Source: an uncultured Eubacteriales bacterium (lineage in GTDB: Bacteria; Bacillota; Clostridia; Christensenellales; Aristaeellaceae). From it: DNA of 50,189 nucleotides. The notes beneath the pieces were generated by a model. The model was not told the origin of the DNA and searched no databases. It saw only the letters and a list, made by a program, of their open reading frames with translations. The DNA lies in the NCBI GenBank assembly GCA_900320085.1, contig ONRC01000011.1, positions 1 to 50,189 of the forward strand, written 5' to 3'. The position numbers and the translations under genes are program-made. This document shows positions 11,119-43,359 of the stretch, piece by piece (position 1 is the stretch's first letter; each line of letters starts with the position of its first letter).

Positions 11119-14100
11119 ATGAAACAGAGGGGAACTGGCTTGCCCAAGGTGCTGCTGGCCTTGCTGCTGGCATTCATTCTGACTGTCGCATCGGGCGTGT
11201 TTGCGCTGGCTGAATCCGGCACATCGGAAGGGCACAACAACGAGGGCGACGGCAACAAGATCGAAAGCATCCACATCCACTGGGTAACTGAAGATACGGT
11301 GGATGATCAGGAGCCGAACAACCTGTATCTGAGGACGCGGTCGGACACGGAGCTGACGATGCAGTATCAGATCGACGTCAGTTTCTCGGGACAGTACGAC
11401 TATGAGCCCGGGTCGATCCGGATCACGATCCCGCCGCAGATCTGGCATATGCGGCAACCGGGGAACGAGGACGGAGAGTCGCTGGACGCGGGATACGGCG
11501 GGCTGTCGCTGTCGGTGCCGGACGCGAGCTCGACGAAGACGGACTGGCATTACGAGATCAACGAGGACGGGACGTATTCCATCGTGAACACGAAAAACAT
11601 CGCGGCGACGAGCAAGGCGATGTTCCAGCTTACGGTGCACGGAATTATCCCCCACAACATCGTGGACGAGGACGATTCGGATGATCTGAATGCGCGCTGC
11701 GAAGTGGTGACGCACGAGGGGAACACGATCTGGCTGGATTCAAATACGATCACGGCGAAGATCGACACGGAAGAGACGCTGAGCCACGCGTACAAGAACA
11801 GCGTGTTCTATGAGGACGCGGAATCGGTGCCGGCGTCGCTGCTGGCGAACCTGCCGGAGGGAGCGGACCCGAAGAAGTACGTGTATGTGCGGTGGCGCAC
11901 CTACCCGCAGTACTCGGGGAACCAGAACTTCAGCCTGGACGTGGAGGACCGTGGCAGCGTGCAGGTGGACGGCGCGTATGACCCGGCGGCGGATCTGGCG
12001 CAGCACATCGGCTGCTACAAGGTGATCTACGATGAGGAAGGGCGCGAGGTCGACCTGGTGTGGACGGCGCCGGCAGTGATGCTGGGGGCGGAGAACGGCG
12101 GAACCACGGTAGACAACGTGTGGACAAAGGACGTGCTGACGAACACCTGGAACAACCAGGGCACGCAGCCGTACAACAACGTGTGCAACCTGTGGACGGC
12201 ATACAGCACGGAGGACATGGAGTGGGACACGACGTACCGGATGCTGAACCGGGCGACGTGGACGCTGACGGAGCAGGACCCGGAGGCGGAGTATCCTGAG
12301 AAGCTGGAGAAACCGAAACCGGACCAGAAGGAGGTGACCATAGCCGAAGCGAAGGACTCGACGACGTACACGCGGGCGAAGTGGCAGTACCCTCCGGGAC
12401 GCTTTATGGTGTTCAAATACACGGAGCAGTCCGAGACGCACAAGCACAGCACGATGAGTGCGGACTCGAGACGGTCGGGCAACTATCACCAGAAGAACTA
12501 CACATATGAGATGGCGCTGAACCGGCTGCGGAAGGGCATCGACGTGGAGATGCAGTACGAGGTCCTGACGGTGGGCTACGGCTACATCTTCACCTGCGGG
12601 CCACTGGCGAACGTGGTGGGCTGGGAGGACATCAACGGCAACGAGCACACCGCGCCGCTGGACGAAGGCATCGGGGGAGGCTACGACGACAATTGGGACT
12701 CGGCGGCATGGGCGGAGGACCCGGAACACTACCTGAACTGGTACTACGTGATGGACACGACGGACCGGTGGAACTGGTTCCAGGACGTGTCGGGAACGCC
12801 GGAGAGCCAGCTGATCAAGGCAAACTCGGACGACTATGAATTCAAGGGCGTGACGATCGCGTCGCCGGAGATGTTCGACTGGGACAAGTCGAAGAACCCG
12901 ACGTATTATTTCAATACCACGACCTTCGGCTTCATACCGGATGAAAGCATCCCGAAGCCGGCGGTGGAGCTGTGGGTGGAGCTGAACAACGACGCGGCGC
13001 CGGAGTCCGGGTATGCGGTGGACAAGGATGGCTGGGTGTATGTGGGCAGCTACACCGTGGAGAGCGGCAAGACCCAGTACATCGATTTTGCGGCGCTCGG
13101 CTTTGAGGGCGTCACGGGTTACCGCACGCGCATTGCCTCCAACCAGGCGGCGACGAAGCTGGCGGTGTATCCGCACATCCTGCTGAAGGCGTCGGACCGG
13201 GTCAAGGACATCGTGGAGAACCTGTTCGCGGAGAGCGAGACGCCGTCGACGACATACCGGAATGACGACATGATGTACGTGGACCTGTACCACCATGCGG
13301 AACGCACCGAGGTGGGCGAGGACAAGGACGTGCATCCCAACCAGGCGATTTTCCTGCCTGAAGAGAACTACACACACCTGTATATCTGGCAGGATAACTC
13401 CCGCGCGACCCTGACGGGCGCGGGCTACGGCGCTGTGCCGCACAAGTTTGTGGACTTTGACCGGTTCACGGACAACGATGTGGAGAACCGGCAGGTGGTG
13501 CTGCACTACAGCGCGTACGCGGACGAAATGACGAACCTGACGAGCGTGGCGAACTGGCGTGAGGCCGTGCAGCTGGGGGCCGTGAAGGAAGAAACGAGCG
13601 GCGTCTGGTACGACCTGCTGCCGGAGGGCGTGGTGCCGCTGATGGACACAGTGTCGCTGCGGCCGGGAGACACGCTGAAATCGAAGCGGACGATCGACAA
13701 CTATGAGGGCACGGGCCGGATCCTGCTGATCGTGGAGGCGGACCTGAAGGCGGCGCCCGCGAAGCAGTATATCCACGGGAGCTACAACAGCTATGTGAGC
13801 GACTGCCCGCGGCTGAGCTTCGACGCGACGTATACCTGGACGGACATCAACACGCTGGGCAGCCATCTGGTGAACTATGTGGCTTTCGAAAGCGGGGACG
13901 ACGAACGGCTGGGCACGCTGAGCGGACGAATCGGCGAGGCGGACGCCATGGTGCGGCAGAACAACAACTATACGCCGAACCGCGAGCCGCAGGACATCGT
14001 GAAGGCGATGACAAACCTTGATCCGAATTCGGACGAGGAACGCTTTGTGTACGCAAAAGCAGATGTGAACCTGACGGTGGACCAGATGGCGCAGACGGAA

Positions 14101-17100
14101 TACGTGAAGAACGTAAAGAACGATCTGGACGGCATCTGGACGCAGGGACTGGAAGGACAGCAGCAGGTGAACGTGTACGAAGGACAGTACTACACGTATC
14201 GGCTGCGGGTGGCGTCGGCGAAGGACACGGTCACCAGCAACATGGTGATGTACGACAGCCTGGAGAACTACCTGATCCCGGAAGGCGGCGGCGCGGAGCA
14301 TGACGCGACAAAGCAGGCGGACCACGACGAGGTTGAGTCCAAGAAGGACTGGGACGGCGATTGGGACCGGAAGACAGTCTCCGTGGGCGCCGAAGGGTAT
14401 GAACAGGAAATCGAAGTGGGTGGCCAGTGGCGTGGCCGGCTGCTTTCCATTGACGTAAGCGAATTTATGGCGAAGGGCTGCGCGCCGGTGATTTATTACG
14501 CGACGCAGCCGTGGCTGCAGTTCGGCGACACGACGGGCAGCGTGGTGGACGAGAGCATCTTCTTCAACTACGAAGGCCGGTACGACGTATCGGACGGCGG
14601 TACGTGGCAGCGGGTGACGCCCGGCGCGGACGGCGTGTGGACGGTGCCGGACGGGGTGGACGTGACAGCCATCGCGCTGGACCTGCGGAAACGGACGGAC
14701 GGCGGCGATTTTGAACTGAAGAGCCAGGAATCCGGGGCTGCGTACCTGCATATGGTAGCGCCGGACGACCACGGGGACGAGAATGCGTGGCACGCGAAAG
14801 GCGCGTATGCCCACGTGAACGCGGACGGCAGCGCAGACGGCTTCGAGGATATCGACTGGGATGCCGCGCTGAACCCGGCGAACAACATGCACGCGTACAA
14901 CAATACGCGTCTGATCTGTCAGGTGACCTATGAGGACGGCGGCGCGTTCTCCTTCATCACGATGATCCGGAACGACTACACGAAAGTGGGAATCATGCCG
15001 CAGATCATCAATGTGGAGAAGGTGTGGCAGGACGACGACAACCATGACGCGAAGCGTCCGGACGGCGTCACGGTGACGATGAAGCGGAAGGTGGCTGGGG
15101 CCGCGGGCGACTTCCAGGTCGTATACGACGAGGAGACCGGGAAACCGATCACCGTGACGCTGGATGAGGAACATGACTGGAAGGGAATCTTCTTCCAGGC
15201 GGACGTGGTGGACGAACACGGCAATCCGTACCAGTACAGCTTTGAAGAGGAAGAAATCGCAGGCTACACGGGCGTGGTGCAGAAGATTGACGACACGCAC
15301 TTCACGCTGATCAATACCCACGAGAACGAGAAGACGGAAGTCAGCGGCGAGAAGCAGTGGCTGATGCCGGACGGAAGCAACCTGTCGGATGAAGCGAAGG
15401 CGCTGATCCCGGCCAGCGTGAAGGTGGATCTGTACCGGACGGGGAGCAGCGGCGAGAAGGAGCTGGTGACGACCCAGACGGTGAAGCCGAACACCGACGG
15501 AGACTGGCACTATCTGTTCAGCGGCCTGGACAAGTACGAACGCGGCGGCTTTGAATACGTCTACAGCGTGGTGGAACAGCCGGTGGACTACTTCTGGTCC
15601 TCCACTCAGGACGCCAGCGATATGCCCGATGGGTATACCGTTCCCTTTGAGTACGATCCCGACGCTATCGACATCATCTATAACTTCTATATTCCCTATG
15701 GCGATCTGAGCGTGACGAAGAAGATCGAGCACGCCACCGCCGTGTCCGAGAGCCAGGTGTTTACCTATAACCTGAGCCTGCTGGTGAAAGACGCTGAGCT
15801 GGGCGAGGTGCCGGCGGACGGGAAGTTTGAATACATGATCTACGACGTGACCGGAGAGGGCGCGGAGGAAACGCTGACGGCGGTCAGCACCGGCGAGATC
15901 GGGCACGGGGACACCTTCGAGCTCAAAGGGAACCAGCGGATCATCATCAAGAAGATCCCGACGAAAGCTGTCTACACGATCACCGAGGATGACGAGATGG
16001 GCTGGACCCTGACGTCAAAGGTGAACGACAGCGGCACGGTTCCTACGGTGAAGGAGATGGCGGCGGAATTCACCAACCTGTACAGCGCCAGCGGCAACGT
16101 CAACGTGAAGGTGAATAAGAAGCTGACGGGACACACCATGATCCGGAACAAGTTCAAGTTCGATCTGGTGGACGACAACCCGGACAGCGCAACCTACGGC
16201 GATTCGATCCGGTCCGGCTACAGCCCGGCGGTGACCGGTGAGCGTGACCCGGTGGACAACAGCCTGGAAGTGATCGGGGAGATCGCGTTCCCGGCCCTGA
16301 CCTACACCGAGGCGGACGCGGGGAAGGAATTCTTCTACACCGTGCGGGAGCAGATCCCAGCGGAAGCGACGGACAACGGGAACGGCACCTATACCTACAA
16401 GGGGTATACCTATACCAAGAAGGACTACCCCGTGAAGGTGGAGGTCATCGACAACGGCGACGGCACGCTGAAGGTGACGCCCTACTATCAGGACGGCTCC
16501 GAGTGGAAGCCGGGGAGCGAATTCACCTATGAGCTGGTGAACACCTACGAGGCGAAGGGCGAGCTGAGCTTCCAGGCCTGGAAAGAGCTGGAGGTCTACG
16601 ACCTAAAGGAAGGCCAGTTCGAGTTCGAGCTGTACAAGTACGATACCAAGACTGGCGACAAGGTAGGCGAGCCCATCGAGACCGTGAGCAACGACGCGGA
16701 GGGCATCGCCCACTTCTCGGCGCTGACATTTAATCAGAACAACGTGTCGGATGACCTCGAGCATCCGACGGAGTTTGTGTACCTGATTCGTGAGAAGCGC
16801 GGGAATGATCCGACTGTGGTTTACTCACAGAAAGAATATATTATCCACGTGCATCCCTTCGACAACAACGACGGCACCATCTCCTTCGCCCAGGACAACC
16901 AGACTGCGGAAAGAGAATGGATCGAGACGGTGTGCCCGGAATGTAATGGCACCGGAGTAATCGAAACGAGGCAAGTCACTCAGTATTTGCATCCTACTAC
17001 TGGGCGCATTCGGCCTATAACAGATACAATGAAAGCGGCTTTATGCACGGAATGCAAGGGTATAGGCACCGTCAATGGAGCGCTGTGTGACAATTGCAAA

Positions 17101-20100
17101 GGCACTGGCTGGCCGATTGGCGCATCGTTCAGACTTGACAGCGAACGTGAGACTGTGACTGTAAGAAAGCATGCGTATTTGGATGCGCAGCAGAGATATG
17201 GCGCCTTCTATTCGAATTACCCCACGAATTGGACTAACTCCGGGCATGTTGTTACTATTGCCACTCATAACACGGTAAAGTGTCCTGCGTGTGATGGAAA
17301 AGGCATCACCTTGACTGAAGGCGCTATGACGATTACCGGCGAAACCGGCGGCCCGGTGTTCACCAACGGCTACCGGGACGGCAACCTGTCGGTGACGAAG
17401 CTGATCAAGAACGGTGATCCAAGCCAGACGTTCAACTTCCATATCCAGCTCACCGGCCCCAACCTGGAGGACAAGACGATCACCTACGAGCTGTCCCAGG
17501 TGGACAGCGGCACCGAGATCATCAACGGGCCTGCGAAGCTGGCGGCGAGACCGAAGGCCGTGCCCCTACTTGGGGCGGAAAGTGGTTCTTCCGGTCCATA
17601 CTATGCCACACCAGAAGAATTGGAAGGCGTTGGATATGCGGTACTGAATATAACAACAGGTGAAATGGTATTCTTCCGCTCAACAGCCTCAAATCCGGTA
17701 GACCCGTATGGTAATACCTTCACAATCTCTGGAAATAGAAGCGTCGAGGGCAACCTGAGATACTATAGAAATTTTGACACCTTCAAACCATCTTCAGCCA
17801 GCGGAGTTCCATGGTGGACTTCAGATAGAGAGTACATTAAAAAGGTTAGAATGGTAGGCGCAATACGCCCTGTAAGCGTTGGTTATTGGTTTGTTTATGC
17901 CGATAATTTGGAGTCTGTTGATCTTAGTAAATTGGACACCTCAAAGGCCACGTACTTCTGGAGCTTCTTTAATCGGAATGGAAAATTAAAGGAACTGGAT
18001 CTTTCCATGATAAGCACCGAAAAGGTGACTGACTTTAACTATATGTTTGGTCAGATGACCTCGCTGGAGACACTTAACATTGCAAACTTCGGTGACTTTA
18101 CTGCTGAAGGTGTCTTTGTGGGCAGCAAGCCGGGAGAATCTAACACAACAACAAAGATTTCAACAATTACAATTGGCGACAATACCAAGTTCAGAAACGT
18201 TTCACAGATCATTTTTACCCCGCCAACCACTGATCCTTATGACGGAAAATGGCATAATATCGATACCGGTGAAGCACTTACAACGCAAGAGCTGTTCACA
18301 GAGGGTGGTCATGGTGGTACTTGGTCCTGGGAGGATCCTGCGAAATATCAAATCAACTTTAATCACGGCGAAGGCGCTACCGGCACCATGCCCAGCGCAC
18401 TGGAGGTGCTTTGCAGGTCCGACTACACCTTCACGCCTGCCTTCTACCGCTTCGGCTATGAAGTGGTCAGCATGAAGGATGATGACGGCAACGTCTTCAC
18501 GGCGAATGAAGATGGCACGATCACCATCCCCGGCAGGACCTATACCAAGGATCAGGTGGTGAACCTGACCGCCCAGTGGGCGCCCAAGGACACCAGCACC
18601 GTCATGCAGAACGGCCGCATCGACATCACCCTGCACGGCGGGGAGATGGCGACCTTCAAGGACATCCCCGCGGGCACTGCGTATGAGGTCTGGGAGGATA
18701 CCCCCAAGGGCTGGATCCTGGTGAGCAAGGTGGACGATGCGGGTCGCATCGTGCCCCTGGAGACGGCGGACGCGGTCTTCACCAACGAATACGCGCCGAA
18801 TAAAGTCTCCGCCAGCCTTACCGCCAGCAAGTGGTTCGACGACGAGCTGTCGAAAAAAGAGTTCACCTTCCAGCTGTTCGAGAAGAAGAATGAAGAATGG
18901 GAGCTGATACAAGAAAAGGAGAATAACGAAGGCGGCGTTGCCAGCTTTGGTATCATTATCTATAATGTGCTTGAAGATGGTGTTGTTGGCGATCATTTCT
19001 ATATGATCAAAGAGATCGTTGGAAATGACCCAACGATCAAATATGACGAACATGTAGAATTTGTTAAAATCACCGTGACCGATGACGGGCAAGGCAATGC
19101 GGGTATACAAATCAAATACACGGATGAAAATGAGAACACGAGCAACGGCGTGTACAAGAATTACACGCAGCCCGGTTTCCTGACCATTGCCAAATCCATC
19201 AGCGGATCGACTGCTGCGTCCGAAAATCAGGAATTCACCTTCAAAGTGACTTTCACCGACAAGATGAACAGGCCCCCTGAATTCAAGCTGTTCGGTGAAA
19301 CGCTGACAGCGCTGAAGGCTGAGAAGACAAACAAGACGGGCAGCACGGAAGAAATTTCCCTGCAAATCGAAGACAGCGCGGTAACAGCAACGCTCAAGGG
19401 CGATGAACAAATCAAGATCACGGTTCCTGCTAATCTGAAATATCAGGTGGAGGAACTGGATATGCCCGACGGCTGGACGCTGACGGACAAGACCGGGGAC
19501 AGCGGAAATATCGTATCCACCGAAACCAGCAGTTCCACCTTCACCAACACCTACGCGGCCAGCGGCTACGCTGCGCTGAAAGCGGAAAAGCAGGTGGAGG
19601 GAGAGATCCCCGAGGGCTTTGCCTACACCTTCCACCTCTATGAGGCGGATGAGAACGGCGAGCAGAAGGGTGAAGCCCTGCAAACCAAGACCAATAACCC
19701 GCTGGATAAGGCGGAAAAGATCACCGTGGATGAGAAAGAGGAGAATAACCCGGACTACAACAAGTCCATGGTGCTCTTCGACCAGATCAAGTACACCGAA
19801 GAAGGAACGTATCGCTACGTCATCGTGGAAGATACGGAAGTGCAGGACGAGACCATCATCACCGACGCCCGCAGGATCCTGGCCACGGTCGAAGTGACCG
19901 ACAAAGAAGGCCAGGGCAAGCTGGTGACCGAGGTTACCTACACCGGCGGTGAAAACAACAGCAACATCTTCCTCAACAAGCGGGAGGACGGCTCCCTCAA
20001 GATCAGCAAGACGATCCTGGGAGCGACGGAAGTGTCCGAGGGAACGGAATTCACCGTAACGCTCCAGCTGACGGACAAGAACGACAAGCCCGTCGAAGGA

Positions 20101-23100
20101 ACCTTCGCGGCTGTGCGGACCAACGGAGACGGTGAAGAAACCGAAGAAACCGTGACGGTCACCGAAGGCCGGACCGAAATTGGCATCAAGGGCGCGGAAA
20201 ACGTCCTGATCCGGGGCCTGCCCCACGGATCGGCCTATGAAGCCGAGGAAGAAGGAGTCGATGGCTGGACGAACACCGATGCGTCCGGGGAAAGCGGCAC
20301 GATCATCGGCAAAGAAACCAGCGAAGTATCCTTTGAAAACACCTACGATGCCAAGGGCGAACTGACGCTGGAAGTGCAGAAGAAGATGGACCCCGCCGAT
20401 CTGGAGACCCCGGAGGGCGCCTTCTCCTTCATCCTGATGGAGGGCCGCAGCGAAGTGGAGCGCGCGCAGAACGACGCCAAGGGCCACGCCGCCTTCCATC
20501 CCATCCAGTACAGCCTGGAGGACGTGGGGAAGACCTTTACCTACACCATTCAGGAGCAAACCAGCACCAACTATGCCACTCCGGTGAGCTACGCCTTTGA
20601 CAGCACCCAGTACACCGTGACGGTGACTGTGAAGGACAATGGCGACGGTACGCTGGATGCGACGCCGGTCTTTACGAAGAACGGCGAAACGGTGGACGAA
20701 ATCGTCTTTGCCAACTCCACCCGTGTGGATATTCCCATCCGGAAGGTCTGGACGGAAGACGCGGATGTGGTTGGCGATGTAAGGCCGGCCCGTGTGCTGG
20801 TGCAGCTGCTGGCTGACGGCGAAGTGGTAGCCACCCGCGCCATCAGCACCGGCAACGCCACCGCTGAGGACAGCAATATCTGGGAGAGCAAGTTCACCGG
20901 CATGCCGGAATACAAGGACGGCAAGAAGATCGTGTATACCGTGCAGGAGGTGGCGCCTGCCAACTATTCCGCGTCCATCGACAATGGGGACGAGACCCTG
21001 GTGATCACCAACATCTACCTGGAAGCGCCTGTGACCGTGAGCGGCAAAAAGGTCTTGAAGGGTGAGCCGGTGACGGAAGGCGCGTACAGCTTCAAGCTGG
21101 AAGCCCCGTATGGCGGCGCGCCGATGCCGGAAAACGACGTGGTATCCTGCGATGCGGAAGGCAAATTCAGCTTCGGCGAAATGGTGTTCCGTCTGGAGGA
21201 TTTGGACCAGGACGATGAGGGCAACCTGATCAACGACACGGTGCTGACCTACAAGGTCCGTGAAGTGATCCCCGAAGAGGCTGTGCTGAACGAAGAAGGC
21301 ACCGTGTACGTGCTGGATGGCGTGAACTATGACGCCCATGTATACGAAGTGAACGTGACGCTGCATTACGATGAAAGCGCCAATACCTTCACCGCTGCCA
21401 AGGACAAGGAAGCCGACGATATTCTGTTCACCAACTGGAAGGATCAGATCTCCCTGAAGGTGATCAAGGAATGGAAGGGCGCCGAGGGCGGCAAGGTGGA
21501 GCTGACGCTGTACCGTGTACAGGAGGGCGAATACATCCGGGTGACCGACGCGCCGGAATTCAAGTTCATCGAGGAAGAGAGCGCCTACGTTTGCGAACCG
21601 CTTCCCTGCCTGGATGAGAACAACGAAGAAATCATCTACGCCGTGAAGGAAACGGGCATGGAAGGTTACCTGACCACGTACGTCAATACAGGCGCCCATG
21701 CCTCGGATACGGACGCGGCCTTCAACGGAGCGACGATCATCAACACCTTCGTAACCGAGGGCAGCTATCAGCCGGAGGCCAAGAAGGAACTCAGCGGCCG
21801 TGCGCTGAAGAAGAATGAATTCAGCTTCATCCTGACCGCGGTGGATAAAAACGGCGCTGCGCTGACGGGCGAAGATGCTTACAGCGAAACGGTAAGCAAT
21901 GACGCGGACGGCAAGGTGAAGTTTACGGAAATCCGGTATCAGATGGCGGATATGGATCAGGCCAACGGCCGTCTTGAAGATACCAGGAAATACTACCGCG
22001 TGAAGGAAGTAGTGCCGGAGGACGAATATAAGGAAGCCGGCATGATTTACAGCGCCAAGGAAAGCACCATTACCGTAACGCTGCACCTGAACGAGGAAGG
22101 AAAAATCGAAGCGACACCGGATAAGACGATCAGTGATCTGGTGTTCAACAACACCTATGTGACCGAAAAGCCGAAGACGACGCGGCTGAGCGTGATCAAG
22201 AACTGGGCGGACAATAACGACCAGGACGGCAAGCGCGGCAGCGTCGGCGCGACGGTGCAGCTGTACCGGAAGGTCGGCGACGGCGAAGCAGCGGCAGTAG
22301 GTGCGGCGGAGCAAGTCGGCACAGCGGATGGCTGGAGCAAGACCTGGAGCGGGCTGCCGGTCTACGAGAACGGTACGGCGATCAAGTACTACGTGGTGGA
22401 GACGCTGCCCGAGAACAGCGAATATACAAAGAGCGGCGACGGCGAAAGCACCGGCATCACTGCCAGCGAGAAAGAGAATCTTGGCACCATCACCATCACG
22501 AACAGCTACGAGGCCGAAAAACCGAAGACGACGCAGCTGAGTGTCACCAAGCTCTGGGCGGACAATAACGACCAGGATGGCAAGCGCGGCAGCGTCGGCG
22601 CGACAGTGCAGCTGTACCGGAAGGTCGGCGACAGTGAAGCAACGGCAGTAGGCGCAGCGGAGCAAGTCGGCACAGCGGATGGCTGGAGCAAGACCTGGAG
22701 CGAGCTGCCGGTCTACGAGAACGGTACTGCGATCAAGTACTACGTGGTGGAAACCCTGCCCGAGAACAGCGAATATACAAAGAGCGGCGATGGAGAGGGC
22801 ACAGGCATCACTGCCAGCGAGAAAGAGAATCTTGGCGCCATCACCATCACGAACAGCTACGAATCAAAGCAGACGAAGATCACCGTAACGAAGCTCTGGG
22901 AGGATAATAACGACCAGGACGGCAAGCGCGGCAGCGTCGGCGCGACGGTGCAGCTTTACAAGACCGTGGAACGCGAAGCCACAGAGCAGAAACCCGTGGC
23001 CGTGGGCGCGCCTGTGAAGGTGGGCACGGAAGATCGCTGGAGCTATACCTGGGAGAAGCTGCCGCTGTACGAGAACGGCAGAAAGATCAGCTATAGCGTG

Positions 23101-23925
23101 AAGGAATTGTTGCCCGAGAACAGTGAATACACGTCTGATGCCGGAGACGCGCCTGCAGAGGTTACGGAAAGCGAAGATGGGCTGATTGTGGAGATCACAA
23201 ACAGCTACAAGCCGGAGGTCACCGAGATTCCCGTAACCAAGGTCTGGAATGACAACAATGACGAAGATCAGGTGCGGCCCGCAAGCATTACGGTGAGCCT
23301 GCTGGCCAGCGGCGAAGTGGTGGCAGAGCAGAGGATCACCGCGAAGGACGGCTGGGCATACACCTTTGAAGAGCTGCCTGTGTACGCGGACGGTAAAAAG
23401 ATCACGTATACGGTAAGAGAAAAACCGGTTGCAGACTATGATATGCCTGTGATAACCGGCAGCGCAGAGAAAGGCTTTGAGATCAAGAACACGCATGAAT
23501 CGAAGCCGAAGCCGACGCCTGTACCCTACTACTTCAAGTTCACGTTCACCAAGATCTGGCAGGGCGAGCATGGAGACAGTATAGACTGGGTGCTGTATAA
23601 GCCGGATGGAACCGTGGCGCATAAGAAATTCGACAAGAAAGTCATTTCAGAGAACGAATGGTACTATGAAGCCTGGTTTGCCACGGACGCGGATTACTAT
23701 ATCCTTGAAAACGTACCGGAAGGGTACAAGGTGCGGTATGAAAACGTAGGGGCCCATGCGGGCGAGACGGATCGCTGTTACAATGGCGGAACGATCGTCA
23801 ACTACAAGGTGCCCAGGACGGGCGACAGCGCTAACCTGTGGCTGTGGGCAGTCATGGCACTGGCAGGCGCAGGGGCCGTGTGCGGCGTGGTGGTATACAG
23901 CAAAAAGAAAAAAGACAAGAGGTAA
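11119..23925 (+). CDS. giant sortase-anchored adhesin with CnaB/FctA-type stalk and inserted modules
   Basis: A 4268-residue cell-wall surface protein. Signal peptide 1-31 (ending FALA). Residues about 32-1290 are an unrecognised, Trp/Tyr-rich probable adhesive head. From about 1294 some 20 CnaB or FctA-like immunoglobulin-type domains follow, several with the start VTKxWxDxxDxDxxR and end ITNxY; such domains usually carry Lys-Asn/Asp isopeptide cross-links. Two domains are interrupted. One holds four CxxCxGxG motifs (C1939, C1976, C1990, C2055). The next holds a BspA/DUF285-like segment (about 2160-2340) and an InlB B-repeat-like segment (about 2410-2490). Three near-copies of a 114-117 residue domain lie at 3685-4030. 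The C terminus has VPRTGD (4231-4236), a hydrophobic helix and KKKKDKR, a sortase signal. No sortase or second pilin gene is adjacent. Start: GAGGTGG just before ATG. Confidence 0.93.
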   Translation: MKQRGTGLPKVLLALLLAFILTVASGVFALAESGTSEGHNNEGDGNKIESIHIHWVTEDTVDDQEPNNLYLRTRSDTELTMQYQIDVSFSGQYDYEPGSIRITIPPQIWHMRQPGNEDGESLDAGYGGLSLSVPDASSTKTDWHYEINEDGTYSIVNTKNIAATSKAMFQLTVHGIIPHNIVDEDDSDDLNARCEVVTHEGNTIWLDSNTITAKIDTEETLSHAYKNSVFYEDAESVPASLLANLPEGADPKKYVYVRWRTYPQYSGNQNFSLDVEDRGSVQVDGAYDPAADLAQHIGCYKVIYDEEGREVDLVWTAPAVMLGAENGGTTVDNVWTKDVLTNTWNNQGTQPYNNVCNLWTAYSTEDMEWDTTYRMLNRATWTLTEQDPEAEYPEKLEKPKPDQKEVTIAEAKDSTTYTRAKWQYPPGRFMVFKYTEQSETHKHSTMSADSRRSGNYHQKNYTYEMALNRLRKGIDVEMQYEVLTVGYGYIFTCGPLANVVGWEDINGNEHTAPLDEGIGGGYDDNWDSAAWAEDPEHYLNWYYVMDTTDRWNWFQDVSGTPESQLIKANSDDYEFKGVTIASPEMFDWDKSKNPTYYFNTTTFGFIPDESIPKPAVELWVELNNDAAPESGYAVDKDGWVYVGSYTVESGKTQYIDFAALGFEGVTGYRTRIASNQAATKLAVYPHILLKASDRVKDIVENLFAESETPSTTYRNDDMMYVDLYHHAERTEVGEDKDVHPNQAIFLPEENYTHLYIWQDNSRATLTGAGYGAVPHKFVDFDRFTDNDVENRQVVLHYSAYADEMTNLTSVANWREAVQLGAVKEETSGVWYDLLPEGVVPLMDTVSLRPGDTLKSKRTIDNYEGTGRILLIVEADLKAAPAKQYIHGSYNSYVSDCPRLSFDATYTWTDINTLGSHLVNYVAFESGDDERLGTLSGRIGEADAMVRQNNNYTPNREPQDIVKAMTNLDPNSDEERFVYAKADVNLTVDQMAQTEYVKNVKNDLDGIWTQGLEGQQQVNVYEGQYYTYRLRVASAKDTVTSNMVMYDSLENYLIPEGGGAEHDATKQADHDEVESKKDWDGDWDRKTVSVGAEGYEQEIEVGGQWRGRLLSIDVSEFMAKGCAPVIYYATQPWLQFGDTTGSVVDESIFFNYEGRYDVSDGGTWQRVTPGADGVWTVPDGVDVTAIALDLRKRTDGGDFELKSQESGAAYLHMVAPDDHGDENAWHAKGAYAHVNADGSADGFEDIDWDAALNPANNMHAYNNTRLICQVTYEDGGAFSFITMIRNDYTKVGIMPQIINVEKVWQDDDNHDAKRPDGVTVTMKRKVAGAAGDFQVVYDEETGKPITVTLDEEHDWKGIFFQADVVDEHGNPYQYSFEEEEIAGYTGVVQKIDDTHFTLINTHENEKTEVSGEKQWLMPDGSNLSDEAKALIPASVKVDLYRTGSSGEKELVTTQTVKPNTDGDWHYLFSGLDKYERGGFEYVYSVVEQPVDYFWSSTQDASDMPDGYTVPFEYDPDAIDIIYNFYIPYGDLSVTKKIEHATAVSESQVFTYNLSLLVKDAELGEVPADGKFEYMIYDVTGEGAEETLTAVSTGEIGHGDTFELKGNQRIIIKKIPTKAVYTITEDDEMGWTLTSKVNDSGTVPTVKEMAAEFTNLYSASGNVNVKVNKKLTGHTMIRNKFKFDLVDDNPDSATYGDSIRSGYSPAVTGERDPVDNSLEVIGEIAFPALTYTEADAGKEFFYTVREQIPAEATDNGNGTYTYKGYTYTKKDYPVKVEVIDNGDGTLKVTPYYQDGSEWKPGSEFTYELVNTYEAKGELSFQAWKELEVYDLKEGQFEFELYKYDTKTGDKVGEPIETVSNDAEGIAHFSALTFNQNNVSDDLEHPTEFVYLIREKRGNDPTVVYSQKEYIIHVHPFDNNDGTISFAQDNQTAEREWIETVCPECNGTGVIETRQVTQYLHPTTGRIRPITDTMKAALCTECKGIGTVNGALCDNCKGTGWPIGASFRLDSERETVTVRKHAYLDAQQRYGAFYSNYPTNWTNSGHVVTIATHNTVKCPACDGKGITLTEGAMTITGETGGPVFTNGYRDGNLSVTKLIKNGDPSQTFNFHIQLTGPNLEDKTITYELSQVDSGTEIINGPAKLAARPKAVPLLGAESGSSGPYYATPEELEGVGYAVLNITTGEMVFFRSTASNPVDPYGNTFTISGNRSVEGNLRYYRNFDTFKPSSASGVPWWTSDREYIKKVRMVGAIRPVSVGYWFVYADNLESVDLSKLDTSKATYFWSFFNRNGKLKELDLSMISTEKVTDFNYMFGQMTSLETLNIANFGDFTAEGVFVGSKPGESNTTTKISTITIGDNTKFRNVSQIIFTPPTTDPYDGKWHNIDTGEALTTQELFTEGGHGGTWSWEDPAKYQINFNHGEGATGTMPSALEVLCRSDYTFTPAFYRFGYEVVSMKDDDGNVFTANEDGTITIPGRTYTKDQVVNLTAQWAPKDTSTVMQNGRIDITLHGGEMATFKDIPAGTAYEVWEDTPKGWILVSKVDDAGRIVPLETADAVFTNEYAPNKVSASLTASKWFDDELSKKEFTFQLFEKKNEEWELIQEKENNEGGVASFGIIIYNVLEDGVVGDHFYMIKEIVGNDPTIKYDEHVEFVKITVTDDGQGNAGIQIKYTDENENTSNGVYKNYTQPGFLTIAKSISGSTAASENQEFTFKVTFTDKMNRPPEFKLFGETLTALKAEKTNKTGSTEEISLQIEDSAVTATLKGDEQIKITVPANLKYQVEELDMPDGWTLTDKTGDSGNIVSTETSSSTFTNTYAASGYAALKAEKQVEGEIPEGFAYTFHLYEADENGEQKGEALQTKTNNPLDKAEKITVDEKEENNPDYNKSMVLFDQIKYTEEGTYRYVIVEDTEVQDETIITDARRILATVEVTDKEGQGKLVTEVTYTGGENNSNIFLNKREDGSLKISKTILGATEVSEGTEFTVTLQLTDKNDKPVEGTFAAVRTNGDGEETEETVTVTEGRTEIGIKGAENVLIRGLPHGSAYEAEEEGVDGWTNTDASGESGTIIGKETSEVSFENTYDAKGELTLEVQKKMDPADLETPEGAFSFILMEGRSEVERAQNDAKGHAAFHPIQYSLEDVGKTFTYTIQEQTSTNYATPVSYAFDSTQYTVTVTVKDNGDGTLDATPVFTKNGETVDEIVFANSTRVDIPIRKVWTEDADVVGDVRPARVLVQLLADGEVVATRAISTGNATAEDSNIWESKFTGMPEYKDGKKIVYTVQEVAPANYSASIDNGDETLVITNIYLEAPVTVSGKKVLKGEPVTEGAYSFKLEAPYGGAPMPENDVVSCDAEGKFSFGEMVFRLEDLDQDDEGNLINDTVLTYKVREVIPEEAVLNEEGTVYVLDGVNYDAHVYEVNVTLHYDESANTFTAAKDKEADDILFTNWKDQISLKVIKEWKGAEGGKVELTLYRVQEGEYIRVTDAPEFKFIEEESAYVCEPLPCLDENNEEIIYAVKETGMEGYLTTYVNTGAHASDTDAAFNGATIINTFVTEGSYQPEAKKELSGRALKKNEFSFILTAVDKNGAALTGEDAYSETVSNDADGKVKFTEIRYQMADMDQANGRLEDTRKYYRVKEVVPEDEYKEAGMIYSAKESTITVTLHLNEEGKIEATPDKTISDLVFNNTYVTEKPKTTRLSVIKNWADNNDQDGKRGSVGATVQLYRKVGDGEAAAVGAAEQVGTADGWSKTWSGLPVYENGTAIKYYVVETLPENSEYTKSGDGESTGITASEKENLGTITITNSYEAEKPKTTQLSVTKLWADNNDQDGKRGSVGATVQLYRKVGDSEATAVGAAEQVGTADGWSKTWSELPVYENGTAIKYYVVETLPENSEYTKSGDGEGTGITASEKENLGAITITNSYESKQTKITVTKLWEDNNDQDGKRGSVGATVQLYKTVEREATEQKPVAVGAPVKVGTEDRWSYTWEKLPLYENGRKISYSVKELLPENSEYTSDAGDAPAEVTESEDGLIVEITNSYKPEVTEIPVTKVWNDNNDEDQVRPASITVSLLASGEVVAEQRITAKDGWAYTFEELPVYADGKKITYTVREKPVADYDMPVITGSAEKGFEIKNTHESKPKPTPVPYYFKFTFTKIWQGEHGDSIDWVLYKPDGTVAHKKFDKKVISENEWYYEAWFATDADYYILENVPEGYKVRYENVGAHAGETDRCYNGGTIVNYKVPRTGDSANLWLWAVMALAGAGAVCGVVVYSKKKKDKR
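22171..23215 (+). repeat. three tandem CnaB-domain repeats inside the adhesin gene
   Basis: Units start at 22171, 22522 and 22864, with periods of 351 and 342 bp. The first two are nearly identical in DNA over most of their length; the third shares the block GACCAGGACGGCAAGCGCGG and its surroundings but diverges afterwards. The likeness at the DNA level points to recent duplication or gene conversion, and copy number could vary between strains. Confidence 0.85.
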
Positions 23926-30674: not shown

Positions 30675-30683
30675 TGCTATAAT
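30675..30683 (+). promoter_or_regulatory. radA extended -10 promoter
   Basis: TGCTATAAT (30675-30683) is an extended -10 element about 38 bp before the radA start; no good -35 precedes it. Confidence 0.6.
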
Positions 30684-30720
30684 GATGAGCGGAATACGGA
30701 CGAAGAACGGAGACACGACC

Positions 30721-32103
30721 ATGCCGAAAAAAAAGACCAGCTACCAGTGCAGCGCCTGCGGCTACGAGAATCCCCGATGGATGGGCAAATGCCCGGAGTG
30801 CGGGGCGTGGAACACCATGGAGGAGATCCTGGCCGCGCCGGAGGAAGCCGCGCCGAAAGCCTACAAGCAGCGCGGCGGCACAGGCAGCAGCGCCAAACCC
30901 TTAAAGGACATTGAAACCGGAACCCAGGTATACATTTCCTCCGGCCTGCCGGAGCTGGACCGGGTGCTGGGCGGCGGCATCGTGGAAGGGGCGCTGATGC
31001 TGGTGGGCGGGGATCCGGGCATCGGCAAATCCACCCTGCTTTTGCAGGTGTGCCATCATTTGTGCCGGACGGGCAAGCGCGTGCTGTACGTCAGCGGCGA
31101 GGAAAGCGCCCGGCAGATCAAGCTGCGGGCCCAGCGCCTGGGCGTGGCGGACAGCGACATGATCGTGCTGACCGAAAACGCCATGGACCAGGTTGAGGAA
31201 AAGCTCCGCGCCGTGGCGCCGGACTTCTGCGTGATCGACTCCATCCAGACCATGTACCGTCCCGAGATGGGCAGCGCGCCGGGCAGCGTGAGCCAGGTCA
31301 GGGAAAGCGCGTCGTTGCTGATGCGCTACGCCAAGACCGAGGGCTGCGCCATTTTCCTGGTGGGTCACGTGACCAAGGAAGGCTCCCTGGCCGGGCCCCG
31401 GGTGCTGGAGCACATGGTGGACGTAGTGCTGTATTTCGAGGGCGACCACCAGCACGAATACCGCCTGCTGCGGGCGGTGAAGAACCGCTTCGGTTCCGTG
31501 AACGAGCTGGGCATTTTTGAAATGACCGGCACGGGCATGCGGGCGGTGCAGAACGCCTCCGAAACCCTGCTGTCTCAGCGGGCAAAGGGGGCCAGCGGCT
31601 CCTGCGTGTTCTGCGGCATGGAGGGCAGCCGCCCCATGCTGGTGGATATTCAAGCGCTGGTGACCCAGTCCTTCCTGGCCGCGCCGCGCCGCACGGTGGA
31701 CGGCATGGATTCCTCCCGCGTGATGCTGCTGCTGGCCGTGATGGAAAAGCGGGCCAGGCTCAAAATGTACAACCGGGACGCTTATATCAATGTGGCGGGC
31801 GGCCTGTCCCTGAACGAGCCCGCCGCCGACCTGGCCTTCTGTATGGCGGTCGCTTCCTCCTATGTGGACAGGCCCGTGCCCGGCGACTGGGCGGTGATGG
31901 GGGAAGTGGGACTGGCGGGCGAAGTTCGCGCCATTTCCCAGCTGGAGCGCCGGGTGTCCGAATGCCAGCGGCTGGGCTTTACCCACATCCTCTGCCCCCG
32001 GGACAGCGCAAAGCATGTGAAGGCTCCCGACGGTATCAGCCTCCACGGGGTGGACACCGTGGCCCAGGCCATGGCGGTGCTGGATCTGCTGCCCGGTAAT
32101 TGA
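30721..32103 (+). CDS. radA: DNA repair protein RadA/Sms
   Basis: A 460-residue RadA, a RecA-like DnaB-type helicase that promotes branch migration in homologous recombination. The order is complete: a four-Cys zinc finger (CSACG and CPECG, residues about 9-30), Walker A GGDPGIGKST, the RadA-specific KNRFGSVNELG motif, and a Lon-protease-like C domain (about 330-460). The ATG at 30721 has GGAG 8 nt upstream; an in-frame ATG 39 bp earlier overlaps the promoter and is rejected. It is followed by ileS after 111 bp with a separate promoter. Confidence 0.96.
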   Translation: MPKKKTSYQCSACGYENPRWMGKCPECGAWNTMEEILAAPEEAAPKAYKQRGGTGSSAKPLKDIETGTQVYISSGLPELDRVLGGGIVEGALMLVGGDPGIGKSTLLLQVCHHLCRTGKRVLYVSGEESARQIKLRAQRLGVADSDMIVLTENAMDQVEEKLRAVAPDFCVIDSIQTMYRPEMGSAPGSVSQVRESASLLMRYAKTEGCAIFLVGHVTKEGSLAGPRVLEHMVDVVLYFEGDHQHEYRLLRAVKNRFGSVNELGIFEMTGTGMRAVQNASETLLSQRAKGASGSCVFCGMEGSRPMLVDIQALVTQSFLAAPRRTVDGMDSSRVMLLLAVMEKRARLKMYNRDAYINVAGGLSLNEPAADLAFCMAVASSYVDRPVPGDWAVMGEVGLAGEVRAISQLERRVSECQRLGFTHILCPRDSAKHVKAPDGISLHGVDTVAQAMAVLDLLPGN

Positions 32104-32214: not shown

Positions 32215-35200
32215 TTGAAGTACGAAGAGCTGGACAGCAAACTGAATTTATCCGCTCTCCAGGAGGAAGTGCTTTCCTTCTGGAAGGAGAACCACACCTT
32301 TGAAAAATCCCTGGAAGGGAAAAACAGCGAGGTCGTGTTCTACGACGGCCCGCCCTTCCCCACGGGAAAACCGCACCATGGCACGGTGCTGGTTTCGTTT
32401 ATTAAAGATATGATCGCCCGGTACTGGACCATGCGGGGCAATTCCGTTCCCCGGGTCTGGGGCTGGGACTGCCATGGCCTGCCCATCGAGAACCAGGCCG
32501 AAAAGCTGCTGGAGATCGGGGACAAGAGCATCATCGAAAAATCCACCAGCATCGAAGCAGCCGACGAGGCGGCCAAGGTGGAGGGCAAGGTCAACGATAA
32601 GTGGCACCGCATGGTGCAGAACGCTTCCGACGAAGCCGCCCGGTTCCCCCAGTTCAAGGGCATGCACGTGGGCATGGCCGCGTTCAACAACGAATGCCGC
32701 GAAATCGTATCCAGCAACAACGAAGCCTGGCGCGAGTACATTGAGCAGATGGCCCGCTGGGTGGACTATGACCACGCCTATAAGACCATGACCCCCCAGT
32801 TCATGGAGAGCGTCATGTGGGCCTTCAAGACCTGCTATGACAAGGGCCTGATCTATTCCGGCTACCGTGTCACGCCCTACTGCATGCACTGCGAAACCAG
32901 TCTGTCCATTTCGGACACCCGCGAATCGGACTCCACCCGGCCCCGGCAGGACCGCTGGATCATCGCCAAGTTCCGCAGCGAATCCGAGCCCGAAATGAAC
33001 GGCAAGCCCGTTTATTACCTGGCCTGGACCACCACGCCCTGGACGCTGCCCTCCAACCTGGCACTGAGCGTGAATGAAAACCTGACCTACGCTTACGTGG
33101 ACGTGGGCGAGCAGATTTACGTGGCCTGCGAAAACACCCTGGCCAACTTCAAGAACGTGTTCGGCGAAACGCCCAACATCATCCAGCGCGTGCAGGGCAA
33201 GGACATGCTGGGCAAGCTGTATACGCCCCTGCTTCCTTACTTCGCCTTCATGCGCAAGGACGGCGCGTTCCGCATCATCCCCGCGGATTATGTGGACGCC
33301 GCCGAGGGCGTTGGCATCGTGCATACCGCCCCCGCCTTTGGCGAGGACGACTACTGGACCTGCCGCAAGAATAATATCCCCACCGACGTGGTGAACCCCG
33401 TGGACGCCAAGGGCCACTTCACCGAGGAAGTGACCGACTTCTTCGAGGACAGCAAGACCCGCAACGTGATCGAAATGAACCCGATCATCGTGCGTTTCCT
33501 CTACGCCAACGACAAGGCCGTGGCCGACGGCAGTCTGGTGCATAACTATCCCCACTGCTGGCGCTGCAAGAACCCCCTGATTTACAAGGCCATGAGCGCC
33601 TGGTACTTCAACATCGAAAAGATCAAGCCCCAGCTCATTGAGGAAAACGAAAAGATCAACTGGGTGCCCGAAGGGGTCAAGCACGGCCGGTTCGGAAACT
33701 GGCTGGAAAACGCCCGGGACTGGAACATTTCCCGCAACCGCTACTGGAGCACGCCCATCCCCATCTGGGAATGCGACTGCTGCAAGGAACGCCGGGTGCT
33801 GGGCAGCATCGCGGAAATCAAGGAGGTCAGCGGCATCGAGCTGACCGACCTGCACCGCCAGTACATGGACCAGGTCACCTTCCCCTGCAAATGCGGCGGC
33901 ACCATGCGCCGGGTGCCCGAGGTGCTGGACTGCTGGTTTGAATCCGGCTCCGTCACCTACGCCCAGAAGCATTATCCCTTTGAAAACAAGGACTGGTTCG
34001 AGACCCATTTCCCCTGCGACTTCATCGTGGAATACACCGGCCAGATCCGCTGCTGGTTCTATTACATGCATGTGATGGCCGTGGCGCTGTTTGGCCGCCC
34101 CGCCTTCAAAAACTGCATCGTGCACGGCACCCTGCTGGCCAAGGACGGAAAGAAGCTCTCCAAGTCCTCCAAGAACTACACCGACCCCATGGAGCTCATG
34201 CGCGGCTACGGTACCGACGCCTTCCGCCTGTACCTGTACCAGAGCAACGCCATGCTCATGGGCGACCTCAAGTTTGACGACGACGGCCTCAAGGACGCAT
34301 ACCAGCAGCTGGTGGCCCCTCTGTGGAACGCGGCGAACTTCTTCATCTCCTACGCCAACGTGGACGGCTATCATCCCGACAGCCTGAAAGAGCCCCAGAC
34401 CGACCATCAGCTGGACCGCTGGATTTTGGCGAAATTACAGCAGACCGAAAAGACCATCCGCGAAGCCATGGACGCCTACCAGGTGGACGGCTACGTGACC
34501 CCGCTGGTGTCCCTCATGGACGGCCTGACCAACTGGTACATCCGCCGTTCCCGCCGCCGCTTCTGGGGCTCAGATATGACCGAGGACAAGCAAGCCGCTT
34601 ACGACACGCTGTATTACGTCCTGGTGAACCTGATCAAGCTCTACGCGCCCGTGGCCCCCATCCTGAGTGAAAAGCTGTACCGCATCCTGACGGGCGAGGA
34701 ATCTGTGCATCTGGCCGACTGGCCCAGCATCCCGGAAGCCTACGCCGACGACAAACTGATCGCTGACGTGGAGCTGGTGCGGCGCGTCATTCGCCTGACC
34801 CGTTCCATCCGCGAAAAGCAGAAGGTGAAGAACCGCCAGCCTTTGAGCCTCATGCAGATCGCGCTGAACGACCCGGCGGGCGCGCAGGTGGTCGCCTCCT
34901 TCGCGGACATCATCAAGGAAGAATTGAACGTGAAGGAACTGGAGATTCTGGACGACGTGGACCACATCGCCACCGTGTCCTACAAGCCCTGCTTCCCCGT
35001 CATCGGCCAGAAGTATCCCGCCCAGCGCCCTGCCATCATCAAGGCGGTGCAGACCGGGAAATTCACTTTGGACGGCGGGAAGGTCATCCTCGACCTGAAC
35101 GGCGAAAAGCAGGCCTTTGACGAAGACATCCTGCTCATCTCCTACAACGCCAAGCCCGGCATGCACGTGGTCAGCGAAAGCGGCGCGGTGGTGTCCCTTG

Positions 35201-35466
35201 ACCTGAACATCACCGATGAACTGCGCCAGGAGGGCCTGGCCCGTGACATCGTGCGCAACATCCAGGACGCCCGCAAGGCCCAGAACTACAACATCACTGA
35301 CCGCATCACCATCGCCATCACCGGCGGCGCGCTGCCGGAGGAATGGGTCAGCTACATCTGCGGCGAAACCCTGGCGACTGTCGGCGAAGTTGCTTCCCCC
35401 GACGCCACCGTCACCGTGGAGGGCGAGGGCAAGGAAAACATCGAAATCGCCATCGCCAAACAATAA
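32215..35466 (+). CDS. ileS: isoleucyl-tRNA synthetase, type 2-like with altered HIGH motif
   Basis: A 1083-residue class I synthetase charging tRNA-Ile. The N terminus (EEVLSFWKENHTFEKSL, FYDGPPFPTGKPHHGTVL, MIARYWTMRGNSVPRVWGWD) follows the type 2, eukaryote-like IleRS pattern, as does the length. The HIGH signature reads HHGT, so its last His is Thr. The second signature is intact as KKLSKSSKNY. The editing domain contains WTTTPWTLPSN and the GIVHTAPAFGEDDY pocket. The start is TTG at 32215, with AAGGGGA at 8-nt spacing; the nearby ATG is followed at once by a stop. Type 2 enzymes are commonly mupirocin-insensitive, but this is inference. Confidence 0.95.
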   Translation: MKYEELDSKLNLSALQEEVLSFWKENHTFEKSLEGKNSEVVFYDGPPFPTGKPHHGTVLVSFIKDMIARYWTMRGNSVPRVWGWDCHGLPIENQAEKLLEIGDKSIIEKSTSIEAADEAAKVEGKVNDKWHRMVQNASDEAARFPQFKGMHVGMAAFNNECREIVSSNNEAWREYIEQMARWVDYDHAYKTMTPQFMESVMWAFKTCYDKGLIYSGYRVTPYCMHCETSLSISDTRESDSTRPRQDRWIIAKFRSESEPEMNGKPVYYLAWTTTPWTLPSNLALSVNENLTYAYVDVGEQIYVACENTLANFKNVFGETPNIIQRVQGKDMLGKLYTPLLPYFAFMRKDGAFRIIPADYVDAAEGVGIVHTAPAFGEDDYWTCRKNNIPTDVVNPVDAKGHFTEEVTDFFEDSKTRNVIEMNPIIVRFLYANDKAVADGSLVHNYPHCWRCKNPLIYKAMSAWYFNIEKIKPQLIEENEKINWVPEGVKHGRFGNWLENARDWNISRNRYWSTPIPIWECDCCKERRVLGSIAEIKEVSGIELTDLHRQYMDQVTFPCKCGGTMRRVPEVLDCWFESGSVTYAQKHYPFENKDWFETHFPCDFIVEYTGQIRCWFYYMHVMAVALFGRPAFKNCIVHGTLLAKDGKKLSKSSKNYTDPMELMRGYGTDAFRLYLYQSNAMLMGDLKFDDDGLKDAYQQLVAPLWNAANFFISYANVDGYHPDSLKEPQTDHQLDRWILAKLQQTEKTIREAMDAYQVDGYVTPLVSLMDGLTNWYIRRSRRRFWGSDMTEDKQAAYDTLYYVLVNLIKLYAPVAPILSEKLYRILTGEESVHLADWPSIPEAYADDKLIADVELVRRVIRLTRSIREKQKVKNRQPLSLMQIALNDPAGAQVVASFADIIKEELNVKELEILDDVDHIATVSYKPCFPVIGQKYPAQRPAIIKAVQTGKFTLDGGKVILDLNGEKQAFDEDILLISYNAKPGMHVVSESGAVVSLDLNITDELRQEGLARDIVRNIQDARKAQNYNITDRITIAITGGALPEEWVSYICGETLATVGEVASPDATVTVEGEGKENIEIAIAKQ

Positions 35467-43201: not shown

Positions 43202-43278
<77 letters not shown>

Positions 43279-43282
43279 ACAT

Positions 43283-43359
43283 GGCTCCGTAGCTCAGCTG
43301 GCTAGAGCATTCGGTTCATACCCGGAGTGTCAATGGTTCGAATCCGTTCGGAGCCACCA
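43283..43359 (+). tRNA. elongator tRNA-Met (CAT)
   Basis: A 77-nt tRNA with acceptor GGCTCCG/CGGAGCC, anticodon loop TTCATAC in stem CGG/CCG, T arm TGGTTCGAATCCG, and encoded CCA. The CGGTTCATACCCG context is that of elongator Met rather than Ile2. Its 3' end is the probable attachment site of the element that follows. Confidence 0.93.

Follow-up and report, generated by a model that had tools for sequence, protein, structure and literature searches.

A cysteine insert with four CxxCxGxG knuckles and variable loops in a stalk domain of a predicted giant clostridial adhesin

Insertions in CnaA- and CnaB-fold pilins have been described previously, and their cargoes are usually isopeptide or adhesion domains, according to the available text of a pilin survey (PMC12617251); its main text nowhere mentions the word “zinc”. 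The cysteine-rich domain of DnaJ (PF00684; 1exk, 6jzb) contains four CxxCxGxG motifs, the first and last of which form its Zn1 site, and a quadruple mutant of that site (C147, C150, C200, C203) loses one of the two zincs, as given in the accessible part of PMC8262869. Here, we investigated an insert of ~140 residues that likewise has four CxxCxGxG motifs but lies within an FctA-type stalk domain of a giant protein (P0001), in a setting that would be extracellular, whereas DnaJ is cytosolic. The gene is found in contig ONRC01000011.1 (assembly GCA_900320085.1, an uncultured Eubacteriales bacterium), and the whole stretch analyzed, 50,189 nucleotides, is referred to as the window. We favor, at a rough probability of 55%, a reading in which the insert is a nested two-zinc module of four cysteine pairs that holds two fast-changing loops off the adhesin stalk, probably as a ligand-contacting arm. 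The available text of PMC5818400, PMC8262869, PMC12617251, PMC5481349, and PMC9704523 describes no such module, the subscription literature lying mostly outside this search. The features of the gene and its insert are as follows.

11119..23925, forward strand: open reading frame of the giant protein, 4268 amino acids, predicted to be secreted and wall-anchored
16573..16887, forward strand: host stalk domain, FctA type, N-terminal part, residues 1819-1923
16582..16584, forward strand: Lys1822, predicted isopeptide lysine of the host domain, invariant in 12/12 rows of the alignment of relatives (A3)
16792..16794, forward strand: Glu1892, predicted catalytic glutamate of the host domain, invariant in 12/12 A3 rows
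16879..16932, forward strand: rising strand of the arm, residues 1921-1938 (model strand E122-139); 15 residues from DGTISF to knuckle I
16933..16956, forward strand: knuckle I, CPECNGTG, residues 1939-1946, from the alignment; model block 21-30 has a predicted local distance difference test score (pLDDT) of 89
16957..17043, forward strand: variable loop I-II, 29 residues; A3 mean pairwise identity 0.09
17044..17109, forward strand: inner ribbon, knuckles II and III, residues 1976-1997, spacing 14, from the alignment; weak PDB matches to DnaJ and anti-TRAP
17110..17280, forward strand: variable loop III-IV, 57 residues; A3 mean pairwise identity 0.08
17281..17304, forward strand: knuckle IV, CPACDGKG, residues 2055-2062, from the alignment; model block 141-150, pLDDT 89
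17305..17343, forward strand: returning strand of the arm, residues 2063-2075 (model strand E264-276)
17356..17367, forward strand: closing host strand VFTN with Asn2083, the predicted isopeptide partner (model strand E281-284)
23812..23922, forward strand: C-terminal sorting-like signal (PRTGD, a hydrophobic stretch, KKKKDKR), read by eye from the translation

The motifs start at residues 1939, 1976, 1990, and 2055 (nucleotides 16933, 17044, 17086, and 17281), exactly where an initial annotation had placed them, with a spacing of 37/14/65. This cluster exceeds chance. Only 3/5000 shuffles of the protein contained one or more CxxCxGxG motifs, and at the DNA level the window has 7 matches versus 0.53 expected, 4 of them in this insert. 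The protein has 21 cysteines in total, 8 of which fall between residues 1939 and 2058. The initial annotation also described the codons of the segment as AT-richer than its flanks, and the G+C content at third codon positions (GC3) is indeed 0.51 in the insert versus 0.79 in the host part; 4.4% of equal-length segments of the gene have a GC3 as low. Pfam and NCBIfam scans of the insert returned no family at its cut-off.

From its sequence, the giant protein is predicted to be a wall-anchored surface adhesin. Its translation, read by eye, has an N-terminal signal-like stretch in addition to the sorting-like signal, and the same genome has three sortase matches above cut-off, all outside this contig. 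A Pfam scan (7 matches at E 0.01) identified Cna_B, FctA, DUF7601, and DUF5979 stalk domains. Residues 1-1301 (11119-15021) have no Pfam match at E 0.01, yet can be aligned with the related protein P0003; this region is possibly the tip. A further protein of 4268 amino acids from another public source (P0002) has an identical insert and a host part that is 99.1% identical.

The host domain scores 37.5 bits against PF12892 (FctA; cut-off 22.1) and has a CnaB/FctB-like fold. The match stops at residue 1923, directly before the insert, and the closing VFTN strand follows after it, in agreement with the earlier proposal that the segment splits a stalk domain. Residue roles for the Lys/Glu/Asn isopeptide triad of FctA were taken from the available text of PMC12617251, and all three residues are present in the host domain in the A3 alignment. 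The Asn2083 position is nearly invariant; the sole row without Asn is P0004, which ends before the closing strand. A Lys1822-Asn2083 isopeptide bond would lock the base of the hairpin.

We searched for homologues of the insert using a protein query and profiles and read the slot in 26 distinct proteins. Sixteen have four CxxC pairs (the window, P0003, P0004, P0005, L011, L012, L013, L014, L015, L024, L027, L132 (= L029), L133, L134, L165, and L166), some with extra CxxC motifs, and six are compact, with only two (L028, L033, L131, L162, L164, and L179). L035 has only the outer pairs I and IV, 142 residues apart, L030 has only the inner ribbon, and the slot is empty in L031 and L034. In one of the searches, 125 places were found and 80 kept; all 80 were scanned for at least three clustered CxxC motifs (7 hits), and the slot was read in 15. 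All eight cysteines are invariant in 12/12 aligned relatives, and the cysteine module is conserved among related giant proteins. Within the window's family, 12/308 genomes have the module or the compact form (frame of at least 2400 amino acids, E 0.001). A sample of the order gave 3/297 genomes, all from that same family, and a sample of the class (n = 391, E 1e-5) gave, besides the window's genome, only G825, which belongs to another order. The record titles of 10/14 slot-bearing loci (L021-L031, L033-L035) name the gut or feces of a ruminant or horse. Two of the four-pair members, L166 (G163) and L134 (G066), diverge in their host domain; L166, whose contig measures 3.39 Mb, has an additional CxxC within loop III-IV. 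A different protein, L143 (G178; a 587-amino acid frame), has three units of two CxxC knuckles with spacings of 14, 11, and 14, and after each unit comes a segment that looks, by eye, like the C-terminal part of DnaJ, in a P/A-rich chain.

Conservation differs between the loops and the rest of the domain. Mean pairwise identity in A3 (12 rows) is 0.53 for the host domain, 0.47 for knuckle I, 0.38 for the inner ribbon, and 0.55 for knuckle IV. The loops are the least conserved stretches, at 0.09 for I-II (26-73 residues) and 0.08 for III-IV (38-151 residues). The window and its nearest row, P0004, are 76% identical in the host domain but 22% and 12% in the loops, and L027 and L133 are 79% identical in the host domain but 16% and 16% in the loops. 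GC3 is lower in the insert than in the host in 13/13 loci, barely so in L033 and L035. The question of whether homologues conserve the spacing has a divided answer. Knuckles II and III are 13-16 residues apart in 12/14 four-pair members, and I and IV sit at corresponding heights, whereas I-II (35-82) and III-IV (47-160) are not conserved (n = 14). Because the spacing varies where loops would be displayed, the reading shifts from a metal-binding cargo, as initially proposed, towards a metal-clasped loop holder.

The matching of I and IV is seen in the lengths of the two arms. The “in” length is the number of residues between DGTxSF and the first knuckle, and the “out” length is counted after the last knuckle up to and including PVFxN. 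Arm lengths were obtained for 19 of 24 proteins, omitting L031 and L034 (empty), L030 (no I or IV), L134 (closing strand missed), and P0004 (ends early); for L131, the second of two overlapping CxxC motifs was used. The most frequent (in, out) values are (13,27), in eleven proteins, and (15,29), in four; (14,27), (13,28), (15,30), and (11,26) occur once each. The out arm exceeds the in arm by 13-15 residues in 19/19 proteins and by 14 in 15/19, while the insert length ranges from 48 to 296 residues; the two arms correlate with r = 0.91. On the tree, arm length departs from the rest in the window's clade and in two sister rows, L033 (15,30) and L035 (11,26), and each departing row or clade shifts both arms in the same direction. 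L179, found later with the A4 profile, has 13 residues in and 28 out, counted by eye. These matched lengths suggest a two-stranded arm on which I and IV lie opposite one another. In the compact forms, the knuckles occupy the same heights as I and IV, and we therefore read them as I and IV without the inner ribbon. On the host-domain tree (24 rows), the compact label requires at least three changes on starred branches, which suggests that the inner ribbon was gained or lost repeatedly. Arm heights and the half-losses in L030 and L035 together support pairing I with IV and II with III. It is likely, judging from these patterns, that one metal ion is held at the base by I and IV and another by II and III, in the same nested order as in DnaJ, whose Zn1 joins the first and last motifs.

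We compared the insert with known zinc domains. The insert was modeled from 11/12 rows (L029 omitted) with a pLDDT of 76.6, highest in the knuckle-holding blocks (87-89). At E 0.1, the sequence-profile matches in the PDB are DnaJ (6jzb, E 1.3e-5; 1exk, 0.0058), anti-TRAP (3lcz, 0.017), and BSD2 (9ci1, 0.071), and the A4 profile also retrieves DnaJ-type genes in other genomes, with a best E of 1.7e-6. An hhalign comparison with 33 DnaJ domains gave a probability of 96.7 over 64 columns. The insert misses the curated PF00684 cut-off of 32.7 bits, with 29.2 (residues 1800-2085), 22.8, and 19.9 (whole protein), and the anti-TRAP cut-offs of PF15777 (31.4 of 32) and NF058604 (49 of 65). Neither a J domain nor DnaJ C-terminal domains are among the 7 Pfam matches of the giant protein at E 0.01. 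Of six DnaJ domains among the 33, the one from this genome has a spacing of 17/22/14 and the other five of 17/26/14, compared with 35-82/7-37/47-160 in the insert family, and the initial annotation was correct on that difference. Its label of a DnaJ module, taken as family membership, is not supported, given the score below cut-off, the other spacing, and the missing J domain. As far as profiles can tell, the knuckles are of the DnaJ/anti-TRAP kind, and the module is not a DnaJ domain.

Several points weigh against the nested arrangement and the loop-holding role. “Nested” was assigned by the presence of four CxxC motifs, which makes the count of 16 partly definitional, and the half-loss forms L030 and L035 are a single protein each. 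None of 20,000 permutations reached the arm correlation (n = 19), a figure that overstates independence because the rows share ancestry, and the profile that found L179 includes the rising arm. GxG is missing from some knuckles (e.g., in L015), and knuckles II and III lie 7 residues apart in L027 and 37 in L165. A Foldseek search with the insert model gave no significant fold match; the top row was Ydj1 at E 0.33 and a probability of 0.30. Furthermore, hhalign pairs knuckles I, II, and III of the insert with I, III, and IV of DnaJ rather than in the nested order, which speaks against simple one-to-one descent. Loop turnover is not uniform, as L012 and P0005, which with 81% identity in the host are the most similar of 9 pairs, keep 53% and 46% identity in the loops. 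The variability of the loops could also reflect relaxed constraint.

Another reading makes the insert a purely structural ornament or a decoy, in which the clasp steadies a length-variable loop without a specific ligand and the loop varies by immune or phage pressure or by drift. The loop lengths with identity under 10%, the empty slots of L031 and L034, the nearly loopless compact forms, and the consistently lower GC3 of the insert would all fit. However, eight cysteines and matched arms have been kept over this divergence, which suggests that the held-out part is used, and adhesin-type repeats occupy the neighboring slot in 14/19 relatives; we regard the ornament as rather unlikely. A working DnaJ-like module would bind unfolded peptides or exchange thiols outside the cell, as the cysteine-rich domain of DnaJ does in the cytosol. 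This view draws on the four CxxCxGxG motifs, the A4 and hhalign matches, the non-significant Ydj1 row, and the precedent of ZnJ2, a DnaJ-type zinc domain protein described as a chaperone in the available text of PMC5818400. It is quite improbable given the spacing, the score below cut-off, and the lack of J and C-terminal domains; moreover, a chaperone site is expected to be conserved, whereas conservation is lowest between the knuckles.

Alternatively, the cysteines may hold iron in a rubredoxin-like manner or pair as disulfides, and an anaerobe would then use the module at its surface to transfer electrons or to sense redox state. Rubredoxin, too, has CPxC knuckles, and the site would be extracellular, where disulfides can form. 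The matching metal-binding families and chains are zinc ones, however (DnaJ and the zinc-containing anti-TRAP and BSD2), L030 and L035 lose whole pairs together as a four-cysteine metal site predicts, and bonds within a CxxC would not require I and IV to be matched. Iron or disulfides are very unlikely on these grounds.

In the favored reading of a zinc-clasped loop holder, the outer clasp of I and IV would fix the base of the hairpin arm directly above the isopeptide-locked stalk domain, and the inner ribbon of II and III would be a second fixed point of the arm. The two loops would be presented outward beside a repeat cargo and may contact a ligand there, for which a glycan, a host protein, or a protein of a neighboring cell are candidates. 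We put forward, tentatively and as less probable than the loop holder itself, the broader idea that gut Clostridia use a zinc-clasped scaffold of hypervariable loops on giant adhesins, an antibody-like answer to changing ligands in which the nested clasp grew inside a one-metal hairpin, the loops are swapped on unchanging metal sites and a covalently locked stalk, and a second swappable repeat cargo sits in the next domain. If true, a metal-clasped loop holder would join the known ways of mounting cargo on isopeptide-locked stalks, and DnaJ-type knuckles would be found outside the cell, where they are not expected. The natural series of empty, one-clasp, and nested-clasp slots suggests how a DnaJ-like nested zinc domain could have arisen stepwise. 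Additionally, with room for loops of 26 to 151 residues between metal sites that stay in place, the module would be a possible display scaffold.

The repeat cargo, which the initial annotation did not report, is a second AT-rich insert of about 1 kb. It splits the DUF7601 domain directly after the host domain (17380-18792). Its parts, and the other genes matched in the window, are listed here.

17380..17538, forward strand: DUF7601 stalk domain, first half, profile positions 1-57; 21 bits, alone below the cut-off of 27
17539..18399, forward strand: second inserted cargo, DUF285/BspA-type repeats; PF03382 25.1 bits, cut-off 25
18550..18792, forward strand: DUF7601, second half, profile positions 35-116; 39.6 bits
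1780-3639, reverse strand: HSP90 match, a housekeeping neighbor (10 frames scanned)
30682-32103, forward strand: AAA/Lon-C protein with a LapB-type zinc ribbon, candidate RadA-like, a housekeeping neighbor
32215-35466, forward strand: class I tRNA synthetase, a housekeeping neighbor

The TIGR02167 PARCEL repeat scored 27.8 on the second cargo, under its cut-off of 30. DUF285 repeats are present in the next domain of 14/19 relatives scanned; they were not found at E 0.01 in L012, L030, L134, L164, and L165, although LRR_5 matches L164 weakly. A DUF285 neighbor is found with all three kinds of slot (nested, compact, and empty), and the two cargoes are therefore not strictly coupled. By eye, a Listeria-Bacteroides-type repeat follows the DUF285 segment, and L012 and L033 have Pfam matches to such a repeat below cut-off. 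Elsewhere in the window, 43202-43359 is a tandem pair of tRNA-Met (CAT) genes with 4 bases between them.

Among known systems, surface proteins with BspA/DUF285/PARCEL repeats match the neighboring cargo only and not the cysteine module. Zinc in Aap and SasG acts in the assembly of G5 repeats and not via cysteine knuckles in an insert. Still, the stalks of these staphylococcal adhesins are a case in which zinc matters in a surface adhesin too, to judge from the title of a paper on Aap. Anti-TRAP RtpA (PF15777; 3lcz) has one ribbon of two CxxC motifs spaced 14 residues apart, like II-III of the window and like 4/6 compact forms (L033, L131, L164, and L179); it is a 53-residue TRAP inhibitor with no stalk, whereas the insert is embedded in a stalk domain. 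In this respect the insert resembles the CnaA/CnaB-fold pilins RrgA and Spy0125, which have an extra domain in the loop between the strands of the isopeptide bond. A cargo inserted in a CnaB-fold stalk is thus of a known kind, and the one described here is built from knuckles of the DnaJ/anti-TRAP type.

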